NCBI GenBank assembly: GCA_902559035.1 | Contig: CACEGG010000003.1 | Coordinates: 85,608-149,607, forward strand | DNA: 64,000 nt | Reading direction: 5' to 3' | DNA from: an uncultured Bacteroidota bacterium | Lineage (GTDB): Bacteria > Bacteroidota > Bacteroidia > Flavobacteriales > Flavobacteriaceae | Shown: positions 5,228 through 23,746 of the stretch, one piece after another | Position numbering within the stretch: position 1 is the first letter of the stretch | How the letters are laid out: each line of letters opens with the position of its first letter | Made by a program: the position numbers and the translations under genes | Notes under the pieces: model-generated | Databases searched by the model: none | The model's input: the letters and a program-made list of their open reading frames with translations, nothing else | Told to the model about the DNA's origin: nothing

Positions 5228-6418
5228 TTATATAATTTTTTGGTACAAAGATTCTATATTGGATACTAATTTATTATAACTATAATTTTCAAGACTTATG
5301 CTTTTTCCTTTTTTCCCTAATTTAAGTCTTAGATTTTCGTCTTCAATTATTTGTAATAAATTCTCGCCATAATCATTGACTTTTTTTGTGGACACGATTC
5401 CGCTAATATTGTTTTCTATAATATCTGAAACACCACCAACATCCGTTGAAATCGAAGCAGTTTCGGAAGCCATAGACTCAATAATACTCACTGGAGTGCC
5501 TTCGTTTAAAGATGTTAGACATACAATATCACTCGCAGCTAGAACACTATCAATATCAGAACGCCAAGAAGTGAATAAAACATCACATTCTTTATTTAAA
5601 TCTTTATATGAGTAGGATAAATTATTATTTTCTACATAATTTATTATTTTTTCTGTTTCACTACCATCTCCTACAATTAATGCTTTAATAACCCTCGATG
5701 ATCTATTCATACAATAATTAATTACATCAATAAATAATTGATGATTTTTAACGGGAACAATTCTACCAATAATTGTTATTAAAATTGTATCATCATGTAC
5801 ATTAAATTCTTTTCTTAGCTTTTCTCTTTTAAGTCTTTTGTTCTCGGTAAATCTAATTAAATCAAAACCTAATGGAACTATTTCTATTTTTTCCTTTTCA
5901 CAAATTTTATATTTATATATAAGGTCATAGCTTTGAAGTTTAGATATAGCAATTATTTTGGTTGATTTTTTTGCTAAAAGTGTTTCAATAAATATTAAGA
6001 TTTTATTTTTAAAATTTGAAAAATATCCTTCGAAAACATTACCATGATAAGTGTGAACTAATCTTATTTTTTTATAATAAAACAATGAGGCTAAACGTCC
6101 TAAAAGACCTGACTTAGCCGCATGTGTGTGTATTATATCTGGTTTAAATTTATATATTATAATAATAATTTGAATTAAAGAAATTAAGTCAAATAATGGG
6201 GAAATAGCTCTTCTCATGAATTTCAACTGCTTGAAAGATACCTCTAAATCGTTTAATATATAATCTGCAGATTGTTCATGTTTTTCAGGTTTCCCACCAA
6301 TCAATAGTGTCTCATATAAATCTGAGTTTAAGTACTTAGTTAGATAAGTTGCATTATAAACTGGCCCTCCAACATTAAACCTATTTAATATTCTTAATAT
6401 TTTTATTTTTCTTTTCAT
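5228..6418 (-). CDS. glycosyltransferase, GT4-like
   Basis: Two-Rossmann GT-B pattern: NRFNVGGPVYNATYL, HTHAAKSGLLGRLAS, IGRIVPVKNHQLFID, SLNEGTPVSIIESMA. Confidence 0.9.
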   Translation of the reverse strand: MKRKIKILRILNRFNVGGPVYNATYLTKYLNSDLYETLLIGGKPEKHEQSADYILNDLEVSFKQLKFMRRAISPLFDLISLIQIIIIIYKFKPDIIHTHAAKSGLLGRLASLFYYKKIRLVHTYHGNVFEGYFSNFKNKILIFIETLLAKKSTKIIAISKLQSYDLIYKYKICEKEKIEIVPLGFDLIRFTENKRLKREKLRKEFNVHDDTILITIIGRIVPVKNHQLFIDVINYCMNRSSRVIKALIVGDGSETEKIINYVENNNLSYSYKDLNKECDVLFTSWRSDIDSVLAASDIVCLTSLNEGTPVSIIESMASETASISTDVGGVSDIIENNISGIVSTKKVNDYGENLLQIIEDENLRLKLGKKGKSISLENYSYNKLVSNIESLYQKII

Positions 6419-8298
6419 TGCTTTATATTATATACTTTGGTATACCATTTTTGAAAACAATAAAATGACCAGACTCGAAATGTATTATCCACTTTAGCAT
6501 CAATATGATTTTGGACTAAAGGAACTATATAGTCTATTCTAAAAAGACTCTGCACATTCAAAAAATCTATATCAATATAATCTCTCAATTCGTTCTTTAA
6601 ATTTGTTCTTAACCAATCTCCTACAGGGACAGTAAATCCCATTTTTGATTTTTCTAAAAATTTGTCAGGAAAATACTCTTGAAACGCTTGCTTTAGTATA
6701 TACTTTTTATTCCAGCCTTTAATTAAATAATCATCAGGTAAGCTATTTGTGAAATGCCATATTTTTTTATTAAGAAAAGGAGATCTACATTCAATAGAAG
6801 CATACATACTTGCTCGATCAACCTTAACTAGCATATCACCCTCCAACGAAATATTTTTATCTAGATTTCTAAAGTCATTGATTGAAGACATCTTTTTATT
6901 CATAAAAAATGAGTCTAGAACATTAACATCATCAAACAAAAGCTCTTTTAATTCTCCACTTTTAAAAGCTAACGAAATGATATTTTTATAAAAATCATTA
7001 TTATAATTTACAGATTCCAACAATTTTCTAAGTTTATAGCGTTTTCCTCTTTTATCTTCTCTACTTATTGTAAGTAATTTTATATACTTTAAAAAATTGC
7101 TGTGTATACTCTTAGGAATAGTCTTAGTATAAATACTATTAATTTTACCCATGTAATGTTTGTTATATCCACCAAAAACTTCGTCACCTCCATCACCAGT
7201 CAAAGCGACTTTTACATGACTACTAGTTAATTTAGAGACTAAATATGTTGGTAAAGCCGATGAATCAGCAAAAGGTTCATCATAGTTTAAAATTACATTT
7301 TCTAAATCTTCTTCTAATGATTTTGAATTCACTATAAATTCATGATGCTTACTATTAATAGCCTTAGCTACTAACCTAGATTTTTCCGTTTCATCAAAAG
7401 ATTTTTTATCGAATCCTAATGAAAATGTATCAATTGGATTCTCGTTAGTTTTAGATAAGCATAAGGAAACAATTGACGAGTCAACACCACCTGATAAAAA
7501 AGTACCAATAGGAACGTCAGAAATTGATCTAGAAGATACAGATTCCGTTACCAGATCATGAGTAATTTTTTTTGCTTTTTTAAAACTAATATTACTAGTT
7601 TTTTGAGGAACTGATTTGGATATTTCATTCTCTTTGATGTCTAGAGTGTCAATATCTAACTCAAGATAATGATTAGAAAGGAGTTTCTTAACACCATCAT
7701 AGATTGAATAAGGCGCAGGAATATATGTTAACTGAAAATAAAGTGATAAAGCCTCTTTATTAATTTTTGGCTTAGACTCAAAATTAAGCATTAAGGACTT
7801 TAATTCTGATCCCCAAATTATTTTTTCCATCTGTTTAGAATAGTACAATGGTTTCTCTCCGAAGAAATCTCTAGCAATAAACACCTTTCCGATGTTTTTA
7901 TCAAGTATAGAAAAAGCAAACATTCCATCTAACTTTGAAAAAGATTCAACACCATATATTTCGTACATCTTTAAAATAACTTCTGTATCAGATTTTGTAT
8001 TGAATTCTGTATTATGATTAGTTTCTAATTCTATTTTTAGAGATTGATAGTTATAAATTTCACCATTAAAAACTAATATTAAGTTTCCATCATCTGAAAT
8101 CACGGGCTGTTTACCATTATCTATATCTATAATAGATAGACGTCGCATTCCAAGACTAATCTTCTTACCATTAATTATATCATTATAATAACCTTCATCA
8201 TCTGGACCCCGATGAATTATTTCATTGTTCATCTTATTTATATTTTTGTTTAAATCAATTTCTAAAGATTTAGAAATTATTCCATTAATTCCACACAT
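6415..8298 (-). CDS. asnB: asparagine synthase (glutamine-hydrolysing) family amidotransferase
   Basis: MCGINGIISK N-terminal Cys, HRGPDDEGYY, SGGVDSS PP-loop, LTGDGGDEVFGGY. Confidence 0.93.
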   Translation of the reverse strand: MCGINGIISKSLEIDLNKNINKMNNEIIHRGPDDEGYYNDIINGKKISLGMRRLSIIDIDNGKQPVISDDGNLILVFNGEIYNYQSLKIELETNHNTEFNTKSDTEVILKMYEIYGVESFSKLDGMFAFSILDKNIGKVFIARDFFGEKPLYYSKQMEKIIWGSELKSLMLNFESKPKINKEALSLYFQLTYIPAPYSIYDGVKKLLSNHYLELDIDTLDIKENEISKSVPQKTSNISFKKAKKITHDLVTESVSSRSISDVPIGTFLSGGVDSSIVSLCLSKTNENPIDTFSLGFDKKSFDETEKSRLVAKAINSKHHEFIVNSKSLEEDLENVILNYDEPFADSSALPTYLVSKLTSSHVKVALTGDGGDEVFGGYNKHYMGKINSIYTKTIPKSIHSNFLKYIKLLTISREDKRGKRYKLRKLLESVNYNNDFYKNIISLAFKSGELKELLFDDVNVLDSFFMNKKMSSINDFRNLDKNISLEGDMLVKVDRASMYASIECRSPFLNKKIWHFTNSLPDDYLIKGWNKKYILKQAFQEYFPDKFLEKSKMGFTVPVGDWLRTNLKNELRDYIDIDFLNVQSLFRIDYIVPLVQNHIDAKVDNTFRVWSFYCFQKWYTKVYNIKQ

Positions 8299-8301
8299 TT
8301 A

Positions 8302-9036
8302 TTATATGATTAGTTTTCTAAGTAAATAAGCTATTTTTGGGAATAATTTAATTTTAGAATGGTTTAAACCAACTTTTAAGGTTTCTATCATTGCTAAATT
8401 TTTATTTGAATCAGCAAATCCCCCCATTAATCTTTTAACAAGAATATCTTCTGTAAAGCCAAAAGTCATTTTAGAGTTTATACACCTATATAAAAAATCA
8501 TAATCACCTGAAACTCTATATTTATCATTAAACCTTCCAACTTTATCATATACTTTCTTTCGAATGAAGCAAGCGGGATGATTAACTGGCATTAAAAATG
8601 GAAAAAGATTTAGGTTTTTATTTTTTGAAATATTTTGTTTCCCGTTGTCATAAAAATTTAAAGATTTTCCACAAAATATATCTATAGCAGTATTATTAGT
8701 AAAAAAAGTTGAGACCAATTCGATAGTATTATTTAAATACCAATCATCACTATTTAAAATAAAAATATATTCAGAATTTTTACTAACCATTTTTAAACCC
8801 ATATTCCATGCTTCATATATTCCTCCTTTTGTTGTTTGTTTTTTCAATAAAAAATTCACTCCCAACTCTTTAAATTTTATTTTAACTTTTGATAAATATT
8901 CAAGTGTGCCATCATCAGAACCACCATCTACAAAAATATACTGAATGGGTAAATGTTTTTGAATTAAAATTGATTCAACAGTTTTATCAATTGTTTTAAT
9001 TGAATTTAGACAAGCTGTAATTAATGTGTATTTCAT
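8302..9036 (-). CDS. glycosyltransferase, GT2-like
   Basis: MKYTLITACLNSIKTIDKTVESIL, FVDGGSDDGTLEYL, LNSDDW, NHPACFIRK. Confidence 0.9.
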   Translation of the reverse strand: MKYTLITACLNSIKTIDKTVESILIQKHLPIQYIFVDGGSDDGTLEYLSKVKIKFKELGVNFLLKKQTTKGGIYEAWNMGLKMVSKNSEYIFILNSDDWYLNNTIELVSTFFTNNTAIDIFCGKSLNFYDNGKQNISKNKNLNLFPFLMPVNHPACFIRKKVYDKVGRFNDKYRVSGDYDFLYRCINSKMTFGFTEDILVKRLMGGFADSNKNLAMIETLKVGLNHSKIKLFPKIAYLLRKLII

Positions 9037-10990: not shown

Positions 10991-12514
10991 TCAGTTAGTT
11001 TTATATAAGTTTTTTAAATTATTATTAATCATAAGTAACAATGATTTTTTAATGTAATTATGTGATTCTTCGATTCTATTATATTTTGATATATGTGAGA
11101 AGAAATATTTTAAATCATTGTTTTCACCCAAGTTTAAAGTGTAACAATCAAGATGCGCTTTTTTTCTATCTATACCATAATCATCAAAAAATAAATAAAG
11201 TAGTTTACTGGCTAATAGTTGCTCATCTTTACTTGGTTTAACCATCTTTTCAATATTTCTTAGCATTTTATGATACTCTTCTAAGTTATTAGCCTTATTA
11301 ACAAAACTAAAATTTCCATATGGCGGAGATGAGGCAATGATTACGGGAATACCGTGAAAAGCATACTCCATGCCAGATGTTCCACCACAGGTTATCATAT
11401 AATCAACTGAATTTAATAGCGACTTGGAATTTAATTGATTTGAAACCAATTTTACATTAGATAAATTGTGATTTTCTAATAATGTTTTTAAATAACCCTT
11501 CTCTTTGTATAACTCTGCACTTGGATGCTCTTTTATTAAAATATTTAAATCATTATTTCTATTTAATATATTAAGTGTATCGATTAACCAATGTTCATAA
11601 TCTTGATAAAAAACAGAGGGGTATGCGTGAGGAGCATCACAAAAAATATGAGGTAAAACTAATACAATTTTTGAATTTATATCCAAATTATAATCTGTGA
11701 TTATTCTTTGTCTACTTAATATTTCTTTGGAGTTTGAAAATGCTCTTTTTGCATCATGTTGATTTTGCTTACCAGAGAATCTCTTTTTAGCAAAATCAAG
11801 TGCTTCTTGATTATAAATTTTACTTCTAAAAATTTTAGAAATATATTTTTCGTCAGGTGTTCTACAATGGTACTCATAATCTTTTTGTGTTTCATATAAA
11901 TGAAGAGTTAAAAGGTTTATATCAAACCCAGTATACATTTTTAAATCATAAAATCTAGCTAATTCGAAAACGATTCCCTCCACATAGACATTATCTAAAG
12001 TGAGTAATGATTTAATATTATGTTTAATGATCAGATCATCAATTAGATAAAAATAATAAAGGCAGAGTGCAATTTCTAGCCTGTTTATAATACTTAATTT
12101 TTTTATCGTAGGGATTTTATTTTTTATTAAAATGTAATCATATATATGCTTACCAATGTAAACATTCTTAATACTATAATTTTCTAATGTGATTCCATCT
12201 TTAATCTTAAAAAGTTCAATAAATATTTTTGGGGTGAAATAAAAAAAATTCTTAAGTATTTGTTTTATATGATTTAAATAAAAATCTAGATTAAAGGAAT
12301 CTGATAGTTTATTTATATTAGAATTAGGTTTAAAAAAAGGTACATAAACTGTATTCAGTGATTCTATTTCTGCAATAGCTTTGGCAAACTTTAAAAGAAT
12401 GGTGTTAAAAATAAAATTATTAGTTACTGATACAATTAATAATCCCTCTGAAAAATTATTGTTTCTATAAAAATTTTTATTTTTTTTAAAAAAATTATTT
12501 AATTCTTTTTTCAT
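10991..12514 (-). CDS. putative GT-B glycosyltransferase / capsule-synthesis-like protein
   Basis: C-terminal half VLPHIFCDAPHA, ILIKEHPSAELYKEKG, MITCGGTSGMEYAFHGIPVIIAS, a GT-B nucleotide-binding pattern like capsule/Kdo/nonulosonate transferases. Confidence 0.5.
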   Translation of the reverse strand: MKKELNNFFKKNKNFYRNNNFSEGLLIVSVTNNFIFNTILLKFAKAIAEIESLNTVYVPFFKPNSNINKLSDSFNLDFYLNHIKQILKNFFYFTPKIFIELFKIKDGITLENYSIKNVYIGKHIYDYILIKNKIPTIKKLSIINRLEIALCLYYFYLIDDLIIKHNIKSLLTLDNVYVEGIVFELARFYDLKMYTGFDINLLTLHLYETQKDYEYHCRTPDEKYISKIFRSKIYNQEALDFAKKRFSGKQNQHDAKRAFSNSKEILSRQRIITDYNLDINSKIVLVLPHIFCDAPHAYPSVFYQDYEHWLIDTLNILNRNNDLNILIKEHPSAELYKEKGYLKTLLENHNLSNVKLVSNQLNSKSLLNSVDYMITCGGTSGMEYAFHGIPVIIASSPPYGNFSFVNKANNLEEYHKMLRNIEKMVKPSKDEQLLASKLLYLFFDDYGIDRKKAHLDCYTLNLGENNDLKYFFSHISKYNRIEESHNYIKKSLLLMINNNLKNLYKTN

Positions 12515-13772
12515 TTTTATTTATAAAATATAACCAAGGCATATTTTCAGTTCTTAAAGTTAAAACAAAAGCAAAAAATCCGCCTGTAAAGAAGGATATA
12601 AAAGTAGCTAAAGCGGCTCCGTTAACACCAATCTCTTTAATAAAATAAAAATTTAATACTACATTTAGAATTGCACTTACAATTAGTGTATAAGCATAGT
12701 AACTTGTTAAATTTTTATTTATTAGGTAACAATTAAAAATTTTCCATAATCCATCAAAAAAATATGCAAAAGAGACCAATACAATTATTGCCCAAGAAAA
12801 TTGATAGGAGTCATCAACTATAAAAATATCAAATAAAAAAGGAGATATCATTATTATAGATATTGTCATTAAAAATAAAATTAGTATTAACCAATAAGTA
12901 TATCTTATGATTTTAACTTTAGATTCGTTGTTGTTTTTAGCAATCTCCTTGTAGAAAAATGGGGACCAAGCCCTAAGTATTCCAACCTGTATCATCATAA
13001 CTATGATCCCAAATTTATAATTTACAGCATAAATACCTGTAGCACTTATATCTATTAAATCTGAAATCATAAATTTATCCAATGCCTCAATAACCCAACC
13101 TCCTATGTGGGTTAATATTAGGGGAGAACCTAAGAATAAAATCATTTTGACTTTATTAAATGGATTTATAATCCCAATTTTGCTCTTATATAACATGAAA
13201 ATTGTTAAAAGAAAAAATATTGTGGATGCAAATAAAATTCCATAAACTACTGATTCCCATCCGTAATTTTTGTATTCTAAAAAGTAATAAGAGATTAATA
13301 AAGAAGATAAAGAAAATCCTACTACAAATAATGCGTATGAAATTGCTTTACCTTCGATTTGAAATAAAGTAGTTTGAATTGCAGTTATTGACTGAATTAA
13401 TGAGGTTAAAATACCAATTAAAATAACAATTAATGGAATTGAATATCTCTGAAAAATAATATCCTGTAGATTAGGAAAAAAAAGTACTGCAAACAAAGTT
13501 ACAGATCCAATTACTAAAGAAATAAAAATAGCATTATGTATAAAGATTTTTAATTCTTTTTTTGTCCACTTAAAATAATTTCCAAAAATTAATGTATTAG
13601 ATCCAAAAATAAACAAGCCCTGTAATAAAGCTATAGATGATCTATATAATTCAAGTGTTCCAAATTGATCTGCACTTAAGAATGATGTCAATATAGGTAG
13701 AAACAGAAATGATAATCCCCCGTTTATTACGGAAACAAGTATATAAATTACTGTGTTTTTAAATATTTTCAA
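12495..13772 (-). CDS. polysaccharide flippase, Wzx/MATE-like (copy 1)
   Basis: About 12 hydrophobic segments; FLPILTSFLSADQFGTLELYRS, typical PST/Wzx N-terminus. Confidence 0.85.
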   Translation of the reverse strand: MKIFKNTVIYILVSVINGGLSFLFLPILTSFLSADQFGTLELYRSSIALLQGLFIFGSNTLIFGNYFKWTKKELKIFIHNAIFISLVIGSVTLFAVLFFPNLQDIIFQRYSIPLIVILIGILTSLIQSITAIQTTLFQIEGKAISYALFVVGFSLSSLLISYYFLEYKNYGWESVVYGILFASTIFFLLTIFMLYKSKIGIINPFNKVKMILFLGSPLILTHIGGWVIEALDKFMISDLIDISATGIYAVNYKFGIIVMMIQVGILRAWSPFFYKEIAKNNNESKVKIIRYTYWLILILFLMTISIIMISPFLFDIFIVDDSYQFSWAIIVLVSFAYFFDGLWKIFNCYLINKNLTSYYAYTLIVSAILNVVLNFYFIKEIGVNGAALATFISFFTGGFFAFVLTLRTENMPWLYFINKNEKRIK

Positions 13773-14435
13773 CTAAACTATTTTTTTTCTAACAATTTTA
13801 AATTTCCAAAGTATTTTAAAAAAAACTCTAAATAAGTTAAAATCAATTCTCAAATCATTTGCATTACTAATCCAAAACGAATACTTTTTTGGTTTTTCCC
13901 AGTTTTTTCCATAAAGTGATTCAAAATATTTAATATGATTTTTTGGTAATTGGATATTGATATTATTAAATTTTATTTCTTTAAATTCATCATACAATGC
14001 CTTACTATGAACTCTTTTTAAAAAAATTGTTTCTGGAATATCATTTATATATCCATCAAAGTGGTTATACCAAATACAAAAATCAATTGAATGGTATGGT
14101 TTTTTAACAAACACTAATTGAATATATCTTTCATTTTTTTTTAATTGTCTATATATCCTGTAATCATTTTTAAGCATTTGATTCGTTAAATATTCCAGGT
14201 CTTTTTCTGTTGGATTTATTAAATCAATATCAATATCTGTATCCCAATCAATCAATTTATTATCTCTTAAAATACCTAAAGCTGTGCCGCAGCTAAAGAA
14301 ATATTTTGTTTTTAGTCTATGATTTAAAATTGATATAACTTTTTTTAATTCTTTAAAAGTATTTTCTCTGTTTTTCAAGGGAACAGAAAGATCAATAGTT
14401 TCAGGTAATTTATACCAATTATCGTAGTAGATCAT
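13773..14435 (-). CDS. LicD-like nucleotidyltransferase (putative phospho-substituent transferase)
   Basis: TKYFFSCGTALGILRDNKLIDWDTDIDIDLI matches the LicD/fukutin GTxLGxxR...WDxDxD signature. Confidence 0.75.
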   Translation of the reverse strand: MIYYDNWYKLPETIDLSVPLKNRENTFKELKKVISILNHRLKTKYFFSCGTALGILRDNKLIDWDTDIDIDLINPTEKDLEYLTNQMLKNDYRIYRQLKKNERYIQLVFVKKPYHSIDFCIWYNHFDGYINDIPETIFLKRVHSKALYDEFKEIKFNNINIQLPKNHIKYFESLYGKNWEKPKKYSFWISNANDLRIDFNLFRVFFKILWKFKIVRKKIV

Positions 14436-14436
14436 A

Positions 14437-16212
14437 CTAGTTTATAAGATAGGAAATTTTTTCAATAACCAGTTTATTATCGTAACCCGTTCTTACTGCA
14501 AATCTAAAGTAAGTTTTGCCGTCTTTAAATTTATTACTAATCTCTCTAATATAAATATTGTGAAATTCCAATAATTCATTTATTAGTTCTGCAATTTCAG
14601 CTCTAGTTTCTACTAAAATAAAATCTGATTCACTATTAAAAACTCTTTCAACCCAATCTTGTTTTTTTAAAAGATTAGAAAATTCTGATCTATCAGAAAT
14701 TGTTTTTTCAATGGATTTTTCAAATTCATTTCTATACTTTAACATAATTTCTAAAAAATACTCAGCAATAGAATTAAAATTCCACACAGGAAGAGATTGG
14801 TTAATTTCTTTAATAATTTTTAAATTATTTGAATAAACATAGCCTATTCTAACACCAGGAAATCCATGACTTTTACTCATACTTTTAATAATTACAAAAT
14901 TCTCTAGCAAATCTGCGTTAGGCATCTCTGAAACAGAGGGGGTATTTGAAAAATCAATAAAAGACTCGTCAATTATGAATAACTTCTTTGGGTACTTTTT
15001 AATTAATTCAAAAATATTTTCAGATTTAGTTATAGTTCCTGTTGGATTATTGGGATTAACAAAAACAATAATATCATTGTTGAGGATTTTTTTTGATATC
15101 TCGTCAAAATTAAATGAGCCATTATCACTATAATAATCTTTTTTATTAAATATTTTTTCATATTCTCCAAACGTAGGATTTGGAATCAACACCCTAGAAT
15201 CTGAATATTTATTATTTATAAAAGGATAAATTTGTGCTGCACCATTTAAAGCGCATAGCTTAGATTCGTCTTTAAGCAAGTAATATGACAATTTTTGATT
15301 GAAGATTTTATTGGATGAACCATAATTCCAAATTAATTCTTCAATATTGTTTTTAACATCTGCAATCATTGAGGGAGTTGGAAAATACATATTCCTTATA
15401 AAAGAGAAATCTATTATATCATAGTTCCAATAACCTCCCCAGGCATCACCTAAAATATCTTTTTTTTGATCCTTAGCAAATTTATACTCTGCAATTCTAA
15501 TATCATTAGTATCATCTACCTCAATCCAATCTTTATTATCCACTAATATTGAATAAATATCCTCTTTTTGCATATAAATCAAAATTCCCAGAACTAACTC
15601 GTAATAGCAATTATCATCAATGACCTCTGAATAATAATTAAGAAGTTTTGAAAAAATATTGTTTGTAAAATCTTGAGAAAATTTATAAATATTTAAGGTT
15701 TTATATTTATTTGAAAATGAAAAATCAGAGTCCTGAAGATGTGGCGGTATAACCTCTGTAATTTTATTATTTGATCCAAGTTTAACAACTGTACCATCCA
15801 TTCCTGATTGATATTTAGATACTAATGCAATATTTTTTTTTGAGGACTTTATTAGATTTCCTATTATTTTATGATCATATATAAGATCTGATTCTATTAA
15901 AATAATATCCGAATCAATTTCAATTTTTTTAAAAGCAAGTGATAAAGAAAAAATATTATTAGTTGTTCTAAAATCTTTATTATGTACAAATTGGAAATTA
16001 ACATTATTGTAATTATCTAATAAATATTTTTTTAATTCTTCTGATCTGTAGCCTGTAACGACGACTACGTTCTTAACTGAATTACTAATTAAGGAATCAA
16101 TAATATTATCAATAATGGTAATATTATTGATTTTCAATAATGTTTTATGTTCATTGTCAGTCAGAGGGCGCATTCTATTCCCATAGCCTGCTGCTAAAAT
16201 TATTGCAATCAT
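14437..16212 (-). CDS. bifunctional fusion: N-terminal LicC-like nucleotidyltransferase + C-terminal PLP-dependent class I/II aminotransferase/decarboxylase (CobD/HisC-like)
   Basis: N-term MIAIILAAGYGNRMRPLTDNEHKTLL, TTNNIFSLSLA, WIEVDDTND; C-term VFVNPNNPTGT, FIIDESFIDF, KSMSKSHGFPGVRIGY (PLP-Lys motif). Confidence 0.85.
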   Translation of the reverse strand: MIAIILAAGYGNRMRPLTDNEHKTLLKINNITIIDNIIDSLISNSVKNVVVVTGYRSEELKKYLLDNYNNVNFQFVHNKDFRTTNNIFSLSLAFKKIEIDSDIILIESDLIYDHKIIGNLIKSSKKNIALVSKYQSGMDGTVVKLGSNNKITEVIPPHLQDSDFSFSNKYKTLNIYKFSQDFTNNIFSKLLNYYSEVIDDNCYYELVLGILIYMQKEDIYSILVDNKDWIEVDDTNDIRIAEYKFAKDQKKDILGDAWGGYWNYDIIDFSFIRNMYFPTPSMIADVKNNIEELIWNYGSSNKIFNQKLSYYLLKDESKLCALNGAAQIYPFINNKYSDSRVLIPNPTFGEYEKIFNKKDYYSDNGSFNFDEISKKILNNDIIVFVNPNNPTGTITKSENIFELIKKYPKKLFIIDESFIDFSNTPSVSEMPNADLLENFVIIKSMSKSHGFPGVRIGYVYSNNLKIIKEINQSLPVWNFNSIAEYFLEIMLKYRNEFEKSIEKTISDRSEFSNLLKKQDWVERVFNSESDFILVETRAEIAELINELLEFHNIYIREISNKFKDGKTYFRFAVRTGYDNKLVIEKISYLIN

Positions 16213-16224
16213 TTATTTATTTAT

Positions 16225-17238
16225 TTATTTGATTAATTCAAAGGACATTGGAGTGCCTTTTTCAATATCTTTTGAAAATTCTTTGCCAATTATTTCAGAA
16301 AGAAACTTAGGATGCATACCAAAACCAGGACGAATACTTCTAACGTTTTCATTGGTAATTTTTTCACCAGATTTAACATCTTTAGTCACAAATAAAGATC
16401 TAGAAAATTGCCTGCTTTTTTGCTTTTTTTCTGTCATTTCATAATCAACTTTACCCATCATTTGTTCAGCTATTCGTACAGCTTTTACCATATTAGAAAA
16501 CTCCTGTTCATCCAAGGAGAAATGAGCGTCTGGACCACCAATTGACTTATCCAAAATAAAATGTTTTTCGATTACAGTTGCTCCAAGGCTAGTTGCAATG
16601 ACAGGAGCTTCAATCCCGATTGTGTGATCAGATAATCCTACTTTTACATCAAATCTAGATTTAATATCAGGGATTGATAATAAATTAGCATCTTTAGGAT
16701 CTGCAGGATAAGCAGATGTACATTTTAAAATAGTAATATCATTATTACCAACTTTTTTACAAGTTTCAATAGCTAGTTCAATATCTTCAATCTCAGCAAT
16801 TCCCGTAGATATTATCATAGGTTTACCTTTACTCGCAGCATACTCTATGAGTGGTATGTCTTGGATTTCGAAGGATGCAATCTTGTATATTGGAGTTTTT
16901 AATTTTTCTAATAAATCAATTGCAGTATTATCAAAAGGAGAGGAAAAGCAAATGATTCCTTCTTCTTTTGCTACTCTAAAAATATCATTATGCCATTCCC
17001 AAGGAGTATACGCTCTTTTATATAAATCATATAAATATTCTCCATCCCAAGCTGTTCCATGATTAATTTTGAAATATTCATTTTTAGAATCAATAGTTAA
17101 AGTATCAGCTGTGTAAGTTTGTATTTTGATGGCATCAGCACCAGTTCTTTTTGCTGCTCTAATGGTTTCCAAAGCAATATTTAAATCACCATTATGGTTA
17201 GCTGATAGTTCAGCAATAATAAATGTTTTTTTATTCAT
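16225..17238 (-). CDS. pseI: pseudaminic acid synthase-like NeuB family (with C-terminal SAF domain)
   Basis: IIAELSANHNGDLNIALETI, ADAIKIQTYTADTLTID, AYTPWEWH, SDHTIG, EKHFILDKSIGGPDAHFSL, SLFVTKDVKSGEKITNENVRSIRPG (SAF). Confidence 0.9.
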   Translation of the reverse strand: MNKKTFIIAELSANHNGDLNIALETIRAAKRTGADAIKIQTYTADTLTIDSKNEYFKINHGTAWDGEYLYDLYKRAYTPWEWHNDIFRVAKEEGIICFSSPFDNTAIDLLEKLKTPIYKIASFEIQDIPLIEYAASKGKPMIISTGIAEIEDIELAIETCKKVGNNDITILKCTSAYPADPKDANLLSIPDIKSRFDVKVGLSDHTIGIEAPVIATSLGATVIEKHFILDKSIGGPDAHFSLDEQEFSNMVKAVRIAEQMMGKVDYEMTEKKQKSRQFSRSLFVTKDVKSGEKITNENVRSIRPGFGMHPKFLSEIIGKEFSKDIEKGTPMSFELIK

Positions 17239-18661: not shown

Positions 18662-19978
18662 TTAATTTAATCTTTTAAAACCTGAGTGACAAACTGGACC
18701 ATCTAATAAATCATCAATTTTCAAATCATTAAATTCACATTTTGATATTAAATTATATACCTCATCTAATGCAGTAAAATAACTATCAATATAGTTTTGT
18801 TTATGTTCAGTGCAAGCATAAAAATTTGTGCTCGCCAGAAAACCTTTTTTTAACATTTCTTGTGTTATTAAGGTTTTATATTTTAAATTATTTTCAGAGT
18901 TGAAAGAGTACGTACTAATCGCTGGAAGTCCACTTGTAATAATTTTTAAGTTGTAAGAATCAGCAAGCTTATTCCACTCATCACGCATTTTATTACCAAT
19001 TGATGTAATTATTTCCCATGACTTAATACTTTTCATTTCTTGTAGTGTAGCCAATGCAGCAGCAGGACCAATTCTTTCAGTCCAAAATGTACTACTTATA
19101 AAAGTTTTTTGAGCTGCTTCCATCACGGATTGTTTTCCAACAACTGCCGTTATACCATAACCATTTCCTAGGGTTTTACCAAACATTGCTAAATCAGGGT
19201 TTACTCCAAATTTTTGGTGTATTCCACCATATGTTTCTCTAAAACCAGAAGTACACTCATCAAAGATTAAAACAATATTTTTTCTTGTAGCCAATTCTCT
19301 CACTTTATGAAGAAAATTATCTTCTGGTCCAAAATTTCGAACCACTTCCATTTTGATAACTCCTATATCATTATTTTCTACGATAAAAAGTAACTCTTCA
19401 TAATTATTATAATTAAAAGGATATACTGAATTTTTCAAGTTCTTTGGAACACCCTTTGCATTTAAGCCTGGTAATAAATGTCCCGACAATTCATCTCCAT
19501 CATTATGATTAGCAGACAAATACCAATCGTGCCATCCGTGATAACCACAAATAGCTACATTATCTTTACCGGAAGCCGCACGGGCAATGCGTATAGCGAT
19601 GGCATTTGCTTCTCCTCCGCTTCTAGCAAATCTAACCATATCTGCCCAAGGATTAATTTCTATTAATTTTTCAGCTAAGTAAACTTCTTCAGGGCAATTT
19701 AAAGTACTCATATTGCCTTTTCTAATTGTTTCCATAACAGCAGCATCAACTTTGTCATTACCATACCCTAAAGTATTCGTTCCAATACCCATTATCGACA
19801 TATCGATTAGCTCATTTCCTTCAAGATCCCAAACTGAACAACCTTTTGCTTTAGAAAAATATGAAGGCCATTGTTCTGGTAAAAACATTTCAGGTCTTTT
19901 GGATAATAACATGGTACCTCCAGGGATTATTTTTTTTGCCTTTTTATATAACTCTTGTCCTTTTCCCATTTTAATCAT
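18662..19978 (-). CDS. class III PLP aminotransferase (glutamate-1-semialdehyde aminomutase-like)
   Basis: KIIPGGTMLLSKRPEMFLP, ARSGGEANAIAIRIARAASGKDNVAICGYHGWHDW, IFDECTSGFR, LAMFGKTLGNGYGITAVVG. Confidence 0.9.
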   Translation of the reverse strand: MIKMGKGQELYKKAKKIIPGGTMLLSKRPEMFLPEQWPSYFSKAKGCSVWDLEGNELIDMSIMGIGTNTLGYGNDKVDAAVMETIRKGNMSTLNCPEEVYLAEKLIEINPWADMVRFARSGGEANAIAIRIARAASGKDNVAICGYHGWHDWYLSANHNDGDELSGHLLPGLNAKGVPKNLKNSVYPFNYNNYEELLFIVENNDIGVIKMEVVRNFGPEDNFLHKVRELATRKNIVLIFDECTSGFRETYGGIHQKFGVNPDLAMFGKTLGNGYGITAVVGKQSVMEAAQKTFISSTFWTERIGPAAALATLQEMKSIKSWEIITSIGNKMRDEWNKLADSYNLKIITSGLPAISTYSFNSENNLKYKTLITQEMLKKGFLASTNFYACTEHKQNYIDSYFTALDEVYNLISKCEFNDLKIDDLLDGPVCHSGFKRLN

Positions 19979-20729: not shown

Positions 20730-21589
20730 AATGATGGGTTTAACAAATCTAAATTTTCAACAGTTATATTATCAATACATTTTAAAGCTTCCTCATTAAC
20801 TTCATAAGCAGCGGCTTTTATATTAGCATTTAATTGAGATATGGAATCAACACCTATAATGACATTATCTATATTATTTTGTTTGATACAGTAGCTTAGT
20901 GCTAATGCTTCCATTGAACAACCTTGTTTTTTTGTTATTTTATTTAAGGTCTTTAGATGACGTTTTAGGGCTTGAACAATCGATAAATTATCAGTTATTT
21001 TTTTAAAGAATAAACCTTGAAGAAAAGCAGATCTAGTATGAATTATTTTTCCTTTTTCTTTCAATTTATTTATTAAAACTCCTCTAACGCTAAAATTATC
21101 TAACAAATTAAATGGTAATTGCACTACAGTAATTAAATCTTCATTTAGTAAGCTTTCTAATTGAGTGTTCGTATAAACTGATACACCAATGTTTTTAATT
21201 AAACCTTCAGATTTTAATTCATTCAATGTTTTAAGTGAATTATAATTAGATTTAAAAGAATCAAATGAATGAAACATTATTACATCCAGAGTATTAACGT
21301 TCATTAAGTCGAGGTACTCAAGAACTTTACTCTTTATTAAATTATGTTTAATCTGATGTGGAAATTTAGTGATAATTTTAAATTTAAAATTATTTTGTTC
21401 TTTGTGATAATTTCCAATTAACTGGTGAGCATTTCCATATGCCTGAGCTGTATCTAAAATTCTAATTCCCGAATTATAAGCTACTTTTAAAAGACTTAAT
21501 ACTTCCTCTTTTTTAGGTTTTCCTATAGTATTGTTAATTCCATATTTTAAACCAAATTGAACTGTACCAAGAATTAACTTACTATTCAT
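20720..21589 (-). CDS. aldo/keto reductase (start trimmed to MNSKLILGTVQFG)
   Basis: GTVQFGLKYGINN, ILDTAQAYGNAHQLIG, IITKFPHQI, VIMFHSFD: Asp-Tyr-Lys-His tetrad positions present. Confidence 0.88.
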   Translation of the reverse strand: MNSKLILGTVQFGLKYGINNTIGKPKKEEVLSLLKVAYNSGIRILDTAQAYGNAHQLIGNYHKEQNNFKFKIITKFPHQIKHNLIKSKVLEYLDLMNVNTLDVIMFHSFDSFKSNYNSLKTLNELKSEGLIKNIGVSVYTNTQLESLLNEDLITVVQLPFNLLDNFSVRGVLINKLKEKGKIIHTRSAFLQGLFFKKITDNLSIVQALKRHLKTLNKITKKQGCSMEALALSYCIKQNNIDNVIIGVDSISQLNANIKAAAYEVNEEALKCIDNITVENLDLLNPSLWK

Positions 21590-22730
21590 TAGAAATAAAT
21601 TTGATAACTTCATCAATAACAAAATTTTGCTCTTCATTTGAAAGCGTTGGATACATTGGAAGACTAATACATTTAGAATAATAATTTTCTGCATTAATTA
21701 AATCTGAACCTTCATAACCAATTTTTTTATAATATGGCATAGTATATACTGGTACATAATGAATTTGTGCCAAGATGCCTTTAGAATGGAGGAAGTCATA
21801 CAATTCTTTCCTGTTTTCAACCTCTATAATAAAAAGATGATGGGCATTATAAGACCCAATGGGTAAGTCTTGAAATTTTATTTTCCCTTTGAAAGCTTTT
21901 TTATAATTAAATGAAATTTCATTTCTTCGCTCAACTCCTTTTTTATTTTTTGCTAATTGAGTAATTCCTAATGCAGATTGGAAATCTGTTAATCTATAAT
22001 TAAAACCAAGCGCTATCATTTCATAATACCAACCTCCATGGTTTTCTTCCATGTTCTCTCTAGTAATTCCATGAGTTCTTAGTAACATCAACTTTTCGTA
22101 CAAATCTTTGGAATTGGTTGTAAGCATTCCTCCCTCCCCACAAGCAATGTGTTTTACAGGGTGAAAAGAAAAAACTCCAATGTCTGTATAATTTCCATTT
22201 CCACAAAAGTTTACTTCTCCTTTGCTATCTATAAAATACCCACCAGGTGCATGACAAGCATCTTCTATTATCCAAAGATTATGACTATTTGCCAAAATTC
22301 TAAATTCTTCCATATTAACTGGAAGTCCAGCGAAGTCAACAGGAATTATTCCTTTAAAATATCCTTTTGGCTTTGATTTAATCAATTCTTTTACAGAGTT
22401 AATATCCAACAAATAAGTATTTGGATCAATATCTGCAAACCAAACTTCTCCACCTGCATAACGAATACAGTTTGCCGAGGCAGCAAAAGTTATAGGAGTT
22501 GTAATTACTCTATCACCTTTTTTAAGACCTAAGGCTAGGACAGATAAGTGTAGCCCAGCAGTTGCATTATTAACAGCTACTGCATAGTTAGATCCTACAT
22601 ATTCTGCAAATTTTGATTCAAATTCTCTAGCCTTAGGTCCTTGAGTAAGGTAATCAGATTGTAAAGTTGATACTACAGCATCAATATCTTTTTGATCTAT
22701 ACTTTGTCTACCGTAAGGTATTTTTTTCAT
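21582..22730 (-). CDS. pseC: UDP-4-amino-4,6-dideoxy-N-acetyl-beta-L-altrosamine transaminase
   Basis: IPYGRQSIDQKDIDAVVSTLQSDYLTQGPKAREFESKFAEYVG, VFSFHPVKHIACGEGGML (PLP Lys): DegT/PseC family. Confidence 0.92.
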   Translation of the reverse strand: MKKIPYGRQSIDQKDIDAVVSTLQSDYLTQGPKAREFESKFAEYVGSNYAVAVNNATAGLHLSVLALGLKKGDRVITTPITFAASANCIRYAGGEVWFADIDPNTYLLDINSVKELIKSKPKGYFKGIIPVDFAGLPVNMEEFRILANSHNLWIIEDACHAPGGYFIDSKGEVNFCGNGNYTDIGVFSFHPVKHIACGEGGMLTTNSKDLYEKLMLLRTHGITRENMEENHGGWYYEMIALGFNYRLTDFQSALGITQLAKNKKGVERRNEISFNYKKAFKGKIKFQDLPIGSYNAHHLFIIEVENRKELYDFLHSKGILAQIHYVPVYTMPYYKKIGYEGSDLINAENYYSKCISLPMYPTLSNEEQNFVIDEVIKFISNE

Positions 22731-23746
22731 TATGCTGTAAAATTAGGATCAACATGAATTTTTACTAATTCTCTTAAAGATTCTATCGTTTCCCATTCTT
22801 CATTATCCCCAGAACTGTAAGAAAAATTAGGATCAACTAATTTTGCTTTAAAATGTTCGATAAACTTCTCTCTATTAAAAATAGTCTTTTGTGGTAAAAT
22901 TGCGTAATATTTACCAATGTCATATGTGTTTAGTGCATCGGATACAGTTATCATTTCTTCGTGTAATTTTTCACCGGGTCTTATCCCTACTTCTTCTTGA
23001 CGACAATCAGGACCTATAGCAGTTGCAACGTCAACAATTTTATAGGATGGTATTTTTGGAACAAATAATTCACCTCCCCAAGCTTTTTCAATAGCATCAA
23101 ATACCATCTGACAACCATCTTGAAGAGAAATATTAAAACGGGTCATTTTTTTATCAGTGATTGGTAAAACCCCCTCTTTTCTTTTATTCAAGAAAAATGG
23201 CATAACTGAACCATTAGAACCCATTACATTACCATAACGTACTACTGAGAACTTAACATCTCTTGACCCTTTAATATTGTTAGCTGCTATAAATAGTTTA
23301 TCAGAAGTAAGCTTCGTTGCACCATATAAATTAATAGGAGCACAGGCTTTATCAGTTGAAAGTGCTACAACATCTTTTACACCACATTTCATCGCTGAAG
23401 CAATAACATTTTCTGCTCCATTTATATTTGTTTTGATACATTCTGAAGGATTGTATTCAGCTAAATGAACATGTTTCATTGCTGCAGCATGAATAACGAT
23501 ATCTATTCCTTCAAAAGCTCTATCTAATCTATCTTTATCACGTACATCCCCAATAAAGTACCTCATTGATGGATATTTAGATTCAGGAAACTCCATGGCC
23601 ATATTAAAATGTTTTTGTTCATCTCGTGACAAAATAACTAGTCTTTTTATATCCGGATTTCTATCTAAAATTAATCTTGTAAACATTTTACCAAAAGAAC
23701 CTGTTCCTCCGGTGATTAAAATTGATTTTCCATTTAAATTTAACAT
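22730..23746 (-). CDS. pseB: UDP-N-acetylglucosamine 4,6-dehydratase (inverting)
   Basis: MLNLNGKSILITGGTGSFGKMFTRLIL, AAAMKHVHLAEYNPSECIKTNI, STDKACAPINLYGATK. Confidence 0.95.
   Translation of the reverse strand: MLNLNGKSILITGGTGSFGKMFTRLILDRNPDIKRLVILSRDEQKHFNMAMEFPESKYPSMRYFIGDVRDKDRLDRAFEGIDIVIHAAAMKHVHLAEYNPSECIKTNINGAENVIASAMKCGVKDVVALSTDKACAPINLYGATKLTSDKLFIAANNIKGSRDVKFSVVRYGNVMGSNGSVMPFFLNKRKEGVLPITDKKMTRFNISLQDGCQMVFDAIEKAWGGELFVPKIPSYKIVDVATAIGPDCRQEEVGIRPGEKLHEEMITVSDALNTYDIGKYYAILPQKTIFNREKFIEHFKAKLVDPNFSYSSGDNEEWETIESLRELVKIHVDPNFTA

Follow-up and report, generated by a model that had tools for sequence, protein, structure and literature searches.

What does a protein make that joins a LicC-like cytidylyltransferase to a PLP enzyme, and whose gene runs straight into one for a LicD-type transferase? 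Such a pair lies in the window (the whole stretch of 64,000 nucleotides analysed here), which belongs to the 1.58-Mb draft genome, 88.6% complete, of a marine bacterium. A single 591-aa ORF on the minus strand (16212 to 14437) combines a LicC/PntC-type cytidylyltransferase with a fold-type-I PLP domain. This architecture had been proposed in a sequence-only reading of the DNA and is confirmed by ORF calling and Pfam (NTP_transferase/NTP_transf_3 at residues 3-138, Aminotran_1_2 at residues 310-573); all motifs quoted in that reading are present. The LicD gene (14435 to 13773, minus strand, 220 aa) is directly downstream, with 1 base between the stop codon of the fusion and the LicD ATG. Its LicD signature, also noticed earlier, agrees with the coordinates and with PF04991, whose gathering score it reaches (37 bits against a cut-off of 22.6) through a partial match to profile positions 7-65 of 227; against NF045866 it scores 58.8 bits, under the cut-off. 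The features are the following.

14437..16212, minus strand: 591-aa fusion of a cytidylyltransferase and a CobD/SMUL_1544-type PLP domain, activities predicted (ORF, Pfam/NCBIfam, same-architecture homologues)
15478..16212, minus strand: N-terminal cytidylyltransferase domain, residues 1-245 (profile of 14 nucleotidyltransferase domains against 6pd1 and 1jyk)
15892..15894, minus strand: Glu107, equivalent of Tde-PntC Glu104, amine contact (alignment to 6pd1; role from PMC6697681)
15598..15600, minus strand: Glu205, equivalent of Tde-PntC Glu196 and Spn-LicC Asp192 (profile alignment to 6pd1 and 1jyk)
14440..15441, minus strand: C-terminal PLP domain, about residues 258-591, CobD-like branch (TIGR01140, trees, motifs, Foldseek)
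14872..14874, minus strand: Lys447, PLP Schiff-base lysine by homology, in SMSK (alignments of seven fusions and of motifs)
13773..14435, minus strand: phosphotransferase of the LicD family, predicted to serve the module as acceptor transferase (PF04991)
16225..17238, minus strand: PseI (pseudaminic acid synthase), separated by 12 bases from the fusion downstream (TIGR03586, 522.9 bits, above cut-off)
21582-22730, minus strand: PseC (TIGR03588, 452.2 bits, above cut-off)
22730-23746, minus strand: PseB (TIGR03589, 496.6 bits, above cut-off)
12495..13772, minus strand: Wzx-type flippase directly downstream of LicD (PF01943, 45.3 bits)

On the same strand, the block is flanked upstream by the pseudaminic acid genes and downstream by the flippase, a capsule-type protein and glycosyltransferases. 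The fusion and LicD are part of a surface-polysaccharide locus of pseudaminic-acid type, and the context of PseB and PseC predicts a glycan that contains pseudaminic acid or a relative. The pseudaminic acid operon also holds a HemL-like class III aminotransferase gene (18662-19978; NF004856, 241 bits, below the cut-off of 486). In a sister species (locus L002), a PIG-L-type deacetylase gene (7261-7965) separates the fusion from the PseI-like gene; the window has none at that spot.

The best explanation, which we consider reasonably probable, is that the fusion acts as a two-step donor synthase from serine phosphate to CDP-ethanolamine, from which LicD would transfer phosphoethanolamine to the glycan. 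The C-terminal PLP domain would decarboxylate L-serine O-phosphate, its most likely substrate, to phosphoethanolamine and CO2. The N-terminal domain would then react phosphoethanolamine with CTP to give CDP-ethanolamine and PPi, and the covalent fusion would channel the small intermediate between the two sites. In the last step, LicD would attach the phosphoethanolamine group of CDP-ethanolamine to a sugar in the surface polysaccharide that the surrounding locus would make and that would contain pseudaminic acid, with release of CMP. For the first step there is a precedent from a capsule locus: Cj1436 forms ethanolamine phosphate by decarboxylation of serine phosphate (PMC12409886). A self-contained module for phospho-amino-alcohol decoration had been suggested from the sequence, and it finds bioinformatic support in the placement of the PLP domain, the nucleotidyltransferase pocket and the linkage to LicD. 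Placement beside SMUL_1544, together with a Glu/Glu pocket, narrows that earlier guess to phosphoethanolamine.

The identity of the PLP domain is central to this proposal. Its best-scoring named family is CobD (TIGR01140, 176.2 bits), a score below the equivalog cut-off of 290.55, so the substrate is not readable from the model; hisC (TIGR01141) scores 132.2 bits, likewise under its cut-off of 276.55. A maximum-likelihood tree unites all fusions, SMUL_1544 (6oux) and the stand-alone homologues from IMG/VR in one clade (support 100/99), which sits with 3ftb and with CobD (1lc5, 3fkd), its sister. HisC lies apart from this group on branches supported 100/99. A second tree, to which rhizobial members were added (its outgroup is imperfect, with one long HisC row) gives the same placement. 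Assignment to the CobD/SMUL_1544 branch was defined by tree grouping plus the patterns P[TS]F.EY, DE[SA]F, S.SK and W[NS].N, and the fusion has both. Its motifs are of that type throughout (PTFGEY, DESF, SMSK, PVWNFN, FRFAVRT), the HisC-type counterparts (PPTYGMY, DEAY, TLSK, PPYN, LRITVGT) are missing at all five sites compared, and all seven aligned fusions have Lys447. The sequence-only reading had named clustering with HisC as an outcome that would count against it; the domain falls in a separate clade with CobD-type motifs. A Foldseek search with the PLP-domain model (pLDDT 76.5) returns CobD 3fkd (E-value rank 1) and SMUL_1544 6oux at the top, while TM-scores to HisC are about equal, so that the fold alone does not discriminate CobD/SMUL_1544 from HisC. 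The full-length AlphaFold model (pLDDT 62.9) is too poor for use.

A role as HisC, or as a missing histidine enzyme, was considered and is ruled out by the tree, the motifs and the search for histidine genes: neither hisB nor hisC was found in the source genome or the sister species. The missing pair may reflect a need for external histidine, or gaps in the assemblies; three congeners have both genes.

Within the decarboxylase branch, the choice of substrate leans on SMUL_1544. The PDB title of 6oux names it a decarboxylase, and its role was established in a 2016 J Bacteriol paper, which reportedly describes decarboxylation of serine phosphate. SMUL_1544 has also been proposed as the likely supplier of the ethanolamine phosphate that goes into norpseudo-B12 (PMC4585668). 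The top score for CobD and the first Foldseek rank of 3fkd would also suit a domain that decarboxylates L-threonine phosphate to (R)-1-amino-2-propanol phosphate, so that the glycan would receive phospho-aminopropanol. This is judged unlikely: the domain groups with SMUL_1544 and not with CobD 1lc5/3fkd, and the nucleotidyltransferase pocket residues match an ethanolamine-sized amine site. Alternatively, the domain could be an aminotransferase, as its HisC-like fold would allow, making for example serinol phosphate from DHAP, the reaction by which Cj1437 serves capsule synthesis in C. jejuni (PMC12409886); the donor would then be CDP-serinol. Motifs and tree, the latter built without Cj1437, put the domain on the CobD/SMUL_1544 decarboxylase side, away from HisC, and make such a transamination quite unlikely.

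The cytidylyltransferase domain bears on the same choice. A profile of 14 homologous nucleotidyltransferase domains scores best against Tde-PntC (6pd1, 105.7 bits) and next against Spn-LicC (1jyk, 100.6 bits). Phosphoethanolamine and 2-aminoethylphosphonate (AEP) are one bridging oxygen apart, so a primary-amine pocket suits phosphoethanolamine. In Tde-PntC, Glu104 and Glu196 contact the primary amine of AEP, where Spn-LicC has Asp105 and Asp192 (PMC6697681). Glu107 and Glu205 of the fusion align with the two Tde-PntC residues and are invariant in all 14 domains; the LicC-type Asp/Asp pair of the choline end is absent. This is suggestive of a pocket that accommodates phosphoethanolamine, although Ari-PntC combines LicC-like aromatic residues with AEP specificity (PMC6697681), so that pocket residues alone are no proof of specificity. 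The pocket also touches on a variant in which the PLP domain does not decarboxylate and the donor is a CDP-linked amino-acid phosphate with its carboxylate retained, comparable to the N-methylthreonine-phosphate of C. difficile type A flagellin. Phospho-amino-acid decorations of glycans are indeed known (PMC8861647), but both pocket acids would be expected to repel a carboxylate and the PLP domain stands in a decarboxylase branch, which renders this variant highly improbable.

The resemblance to PntC raises the question of a phosphonate module, in which the fusion would make and activate AEP from phosphonoalanine or phosphonoacetaldehyde. No EDKxxxxxNS motif occurs in the window, in line with the earlier statement that no PEP mutase is visible there. 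Nor was pepM found elsewhere in the source genome, at 88.6% completeness, where the one weak match is PanB-like and without EDKxxxxxNS; a pepM elsewhere in the genome was another finding that had been named as adverse. In the sister species, too, pepM was not found and the weak matches are PanB-like, again lacking that motif. The PLP domain matches PF00155 (class I/II) only, with no class V match, which sets it outside the AEP transaminase fold that had likewise been considered beforehand, and 6pd1 matches the fusion across its nucleotidyltransferase part only. An AEP transaminase/pepM route in this genome is without support, pepM not having been found. One fusion-bearing genome of another Bacteroidota family (G239) does have pepM, but on a different contig from its fusion, where a decarboxylase gene and one for a class V aminotransferase accompany it. 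A phosphonate role is therefore very unlikely here, even with PntC as the nearest relative of the nucleotidyltransferase and with split relatives of the fusion adjoining aepX/pepM on rhizobial plasmids.

Those plasmids carry aepX/pepM with a separate LicC-like nucleotidyltransferase and a CobD-like PLP enzyme of the fusion clade, at three loci.

Bradyrhizobium sp. 187, locus L029, 6753-10737
Rhizobium sp. 007, locus L088, 1-8721
M. loti 582, locus L089, 3744-8218

An aspartate-aminotransferase-like gene lies beside aepX in two of the three, a CDP-alcohol phosphatidyltransferase gene is present in two of the three, and no phosphonopyruvate decarboxylase is annotated at any of them. This arrangement suggests a route from phosphonopyruvate through phosphonoalanine to AEP, CMP-AEP and a phosphonolipid, in which the clade member would decarboxylate phosphonoalanine. 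Since these members adjoin pepM, the substrate of the clade is not fixed.

In the source genome, a SerC-like gene scores 437 bits, slightly short of its curated cut-off (443.6), and makes it probable that serine phosphate is available. A choline kinase (LicA, PF01633) has no match in this genome, the sister species or G239.

The fusion recurs well beyond this genus. Full-length versions occur in six phyla and on IMG/VR contigs, with 80-81% identity in the sister species, 43% in G239, 47% in Gloeothece, 44% in Pseudonocardia, 35% in Fusobacterium, about 31% in Rahnella, Erwinia and Priestia, and 33-35% on three IMG/VR contigs; same-architecture homologues in other phyla span about 28-47%. Such full-length homologues in a congener and in other phyla show that the fusion is not an assembly accident. 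It is nevertheless rare, being present in 2 of 396 sampled Bacteroidota (the source genome included) and in 3 of the 22 genomes that represent the genus; in G005, one of these three, a contig end leaves the N-terminal part only. The Rahnella fusion gene gave no match by blastn against E. coli genomes.

LicD is a recurrent partner. It is the next gene to the fusion in the window, the sister species, G239, Pseudonocardia and the viral contig L037, and the two coding regions overlap in the last four; in Gloeothece, Fusobacterium and IMG/VR contig L039 it lies a few genes away at most, and on IMG/VR contig L038 none was found by the fusion. The co-occurrence survey called for by the sequence-only reading gives a simple result: a PF04991 search finds exactly one LicD each in the source genome, the sister species and G239, and in every case it adjoins the fusion. 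In the other branch, the fusion is followed by a CDP-alcohol phosphatidyltransferase gene instead of LicD (that of Priestia is unannotated and was detected with a profile that does not contain it). The switch between the two partner types maps to one change on the tree. LicD and the CDP-alcohol phosphatidyltransferases are unrelated families whose sole common trait is the use of CDP-activated alcohols, and this shared use of CDP-activated head groups fits a CDP-alcohol as the product of the fusion.

A broader reading, offered tentatively, takes the fusion as a widespread family that pairs a decarboxylase with CMP activation. It might provide a de novo, Kennedy-like route from serine phosphate to CDP-ethanolamine (or, with pepM, from phosphonoalanine to CMP-AEP) and feed LicD for glycans or CDP-alcohol phosphatidyltransferases for lipids interchangeably. 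To our knowledge, bacterial phosphoethanolamine decoration draws the group from phosphatidylethanolamine, and the CDP-based decorations that we know of use scavenged choline or PEP-mutase-derived phosphonates. If true, the proposal would supply glycans with CDP-ethanolamine independently of lipid, choline and phosphonate, and would explain proteins in several phyla that are annotated merely as "aminotransferase class I/II".

Each half-reaction is already known, and the proposed pathway is a variant of the Lic/Pnt logic of CMP activation. The fusion is not a member of PntC, CobD, HisC or Lic-1, as at least one tested defining feature fails for each. Tde-PntC (T. denticola Tde1415; 6pd1/6pd2) also carries a LicC-like cytidylyltransferase N-terminal to a PLP enzyme, with Glu/Glu amine contacts, and its chemistry, like that predicted for the fusion, yields a CMP-activated amino-alkyl phosph(on)ate destined for the cell surface; its PLP enzyme, however, is a class V AEP transaminase that needs PEP mutase, whereas that of the fusion is a CobD-type class I/II domain in a genome where pepM was not found. 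SMUL_1544 of Sulfurospirillum, linked to ethanolamine phosphate formation, is, among characterised proteins, the nearest to the PLP domain (clade support 100/99), yet it stands alone, serves norcobamide assembly and has no nucleotidyltransferase attached. By description alone, Cj1436 of the C. jejuni capsule is similar as a PLP serine-phosphate decarboxylase of a surface-polysaccharide locus (PMC12409886); it differs, again by description, in that the ethanolamine phosphate it makes is incorporated through an amide bond and later loses its phosphate, with neither CDP activation nor LicD. The Lic-1 pathway (LicA/B/C/D) shares the transfer by LicD of a CDP-activated zwitterionic head group to glycans, but relies on imported choline and choline kinase (PMC10434233), and no choline kinase was found in the source genome. 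EptA/Lpt-type transferases arrive at the same final phosphoethanolamine decoration (predicted here) from phosphatidylethanolamine (PMC10434233 for Lpt3) in place of a CDP donor. A search of the open-licence literature found no published description of a LicC-CobD fusion, of its linkage to LicD or of its wide scatter.

Several of the homologous loci have features of their own. Gloeothece has a SAM methyltransferase gene between the fusion and LicD (L024, 10872-11567), which would, speculatively, permit an N-methylated ethanolamine head group. The 121-kb IMG/VR contig L037, classed as viral, carries the fusion with the overlapping LicD-like gene (6001-8570) and also GDP-mannose dehydratase-like genes; phages may spread glycan-decoration cassettes, or else this contig may derive from a host. 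On plasmid pBM700 of Priestia megaterium (L028, 8989-12635), the fusion and its CDP-alcohol phosphatidyltransferase gene adjoin two ATP-grasp genes and an additional gene for DXP reductoisomerase (DXR); the set may be a natural-product cluster in which the extra DXR confers self-resistance. Lastly, the fusion homologue on pNGR234a of S. fredii NGR234 (L030, 7656-9512) has neither the PLP lysine (KSLGAIMG) nor GGYW, is surrounded by IS elements and has probably decayed.
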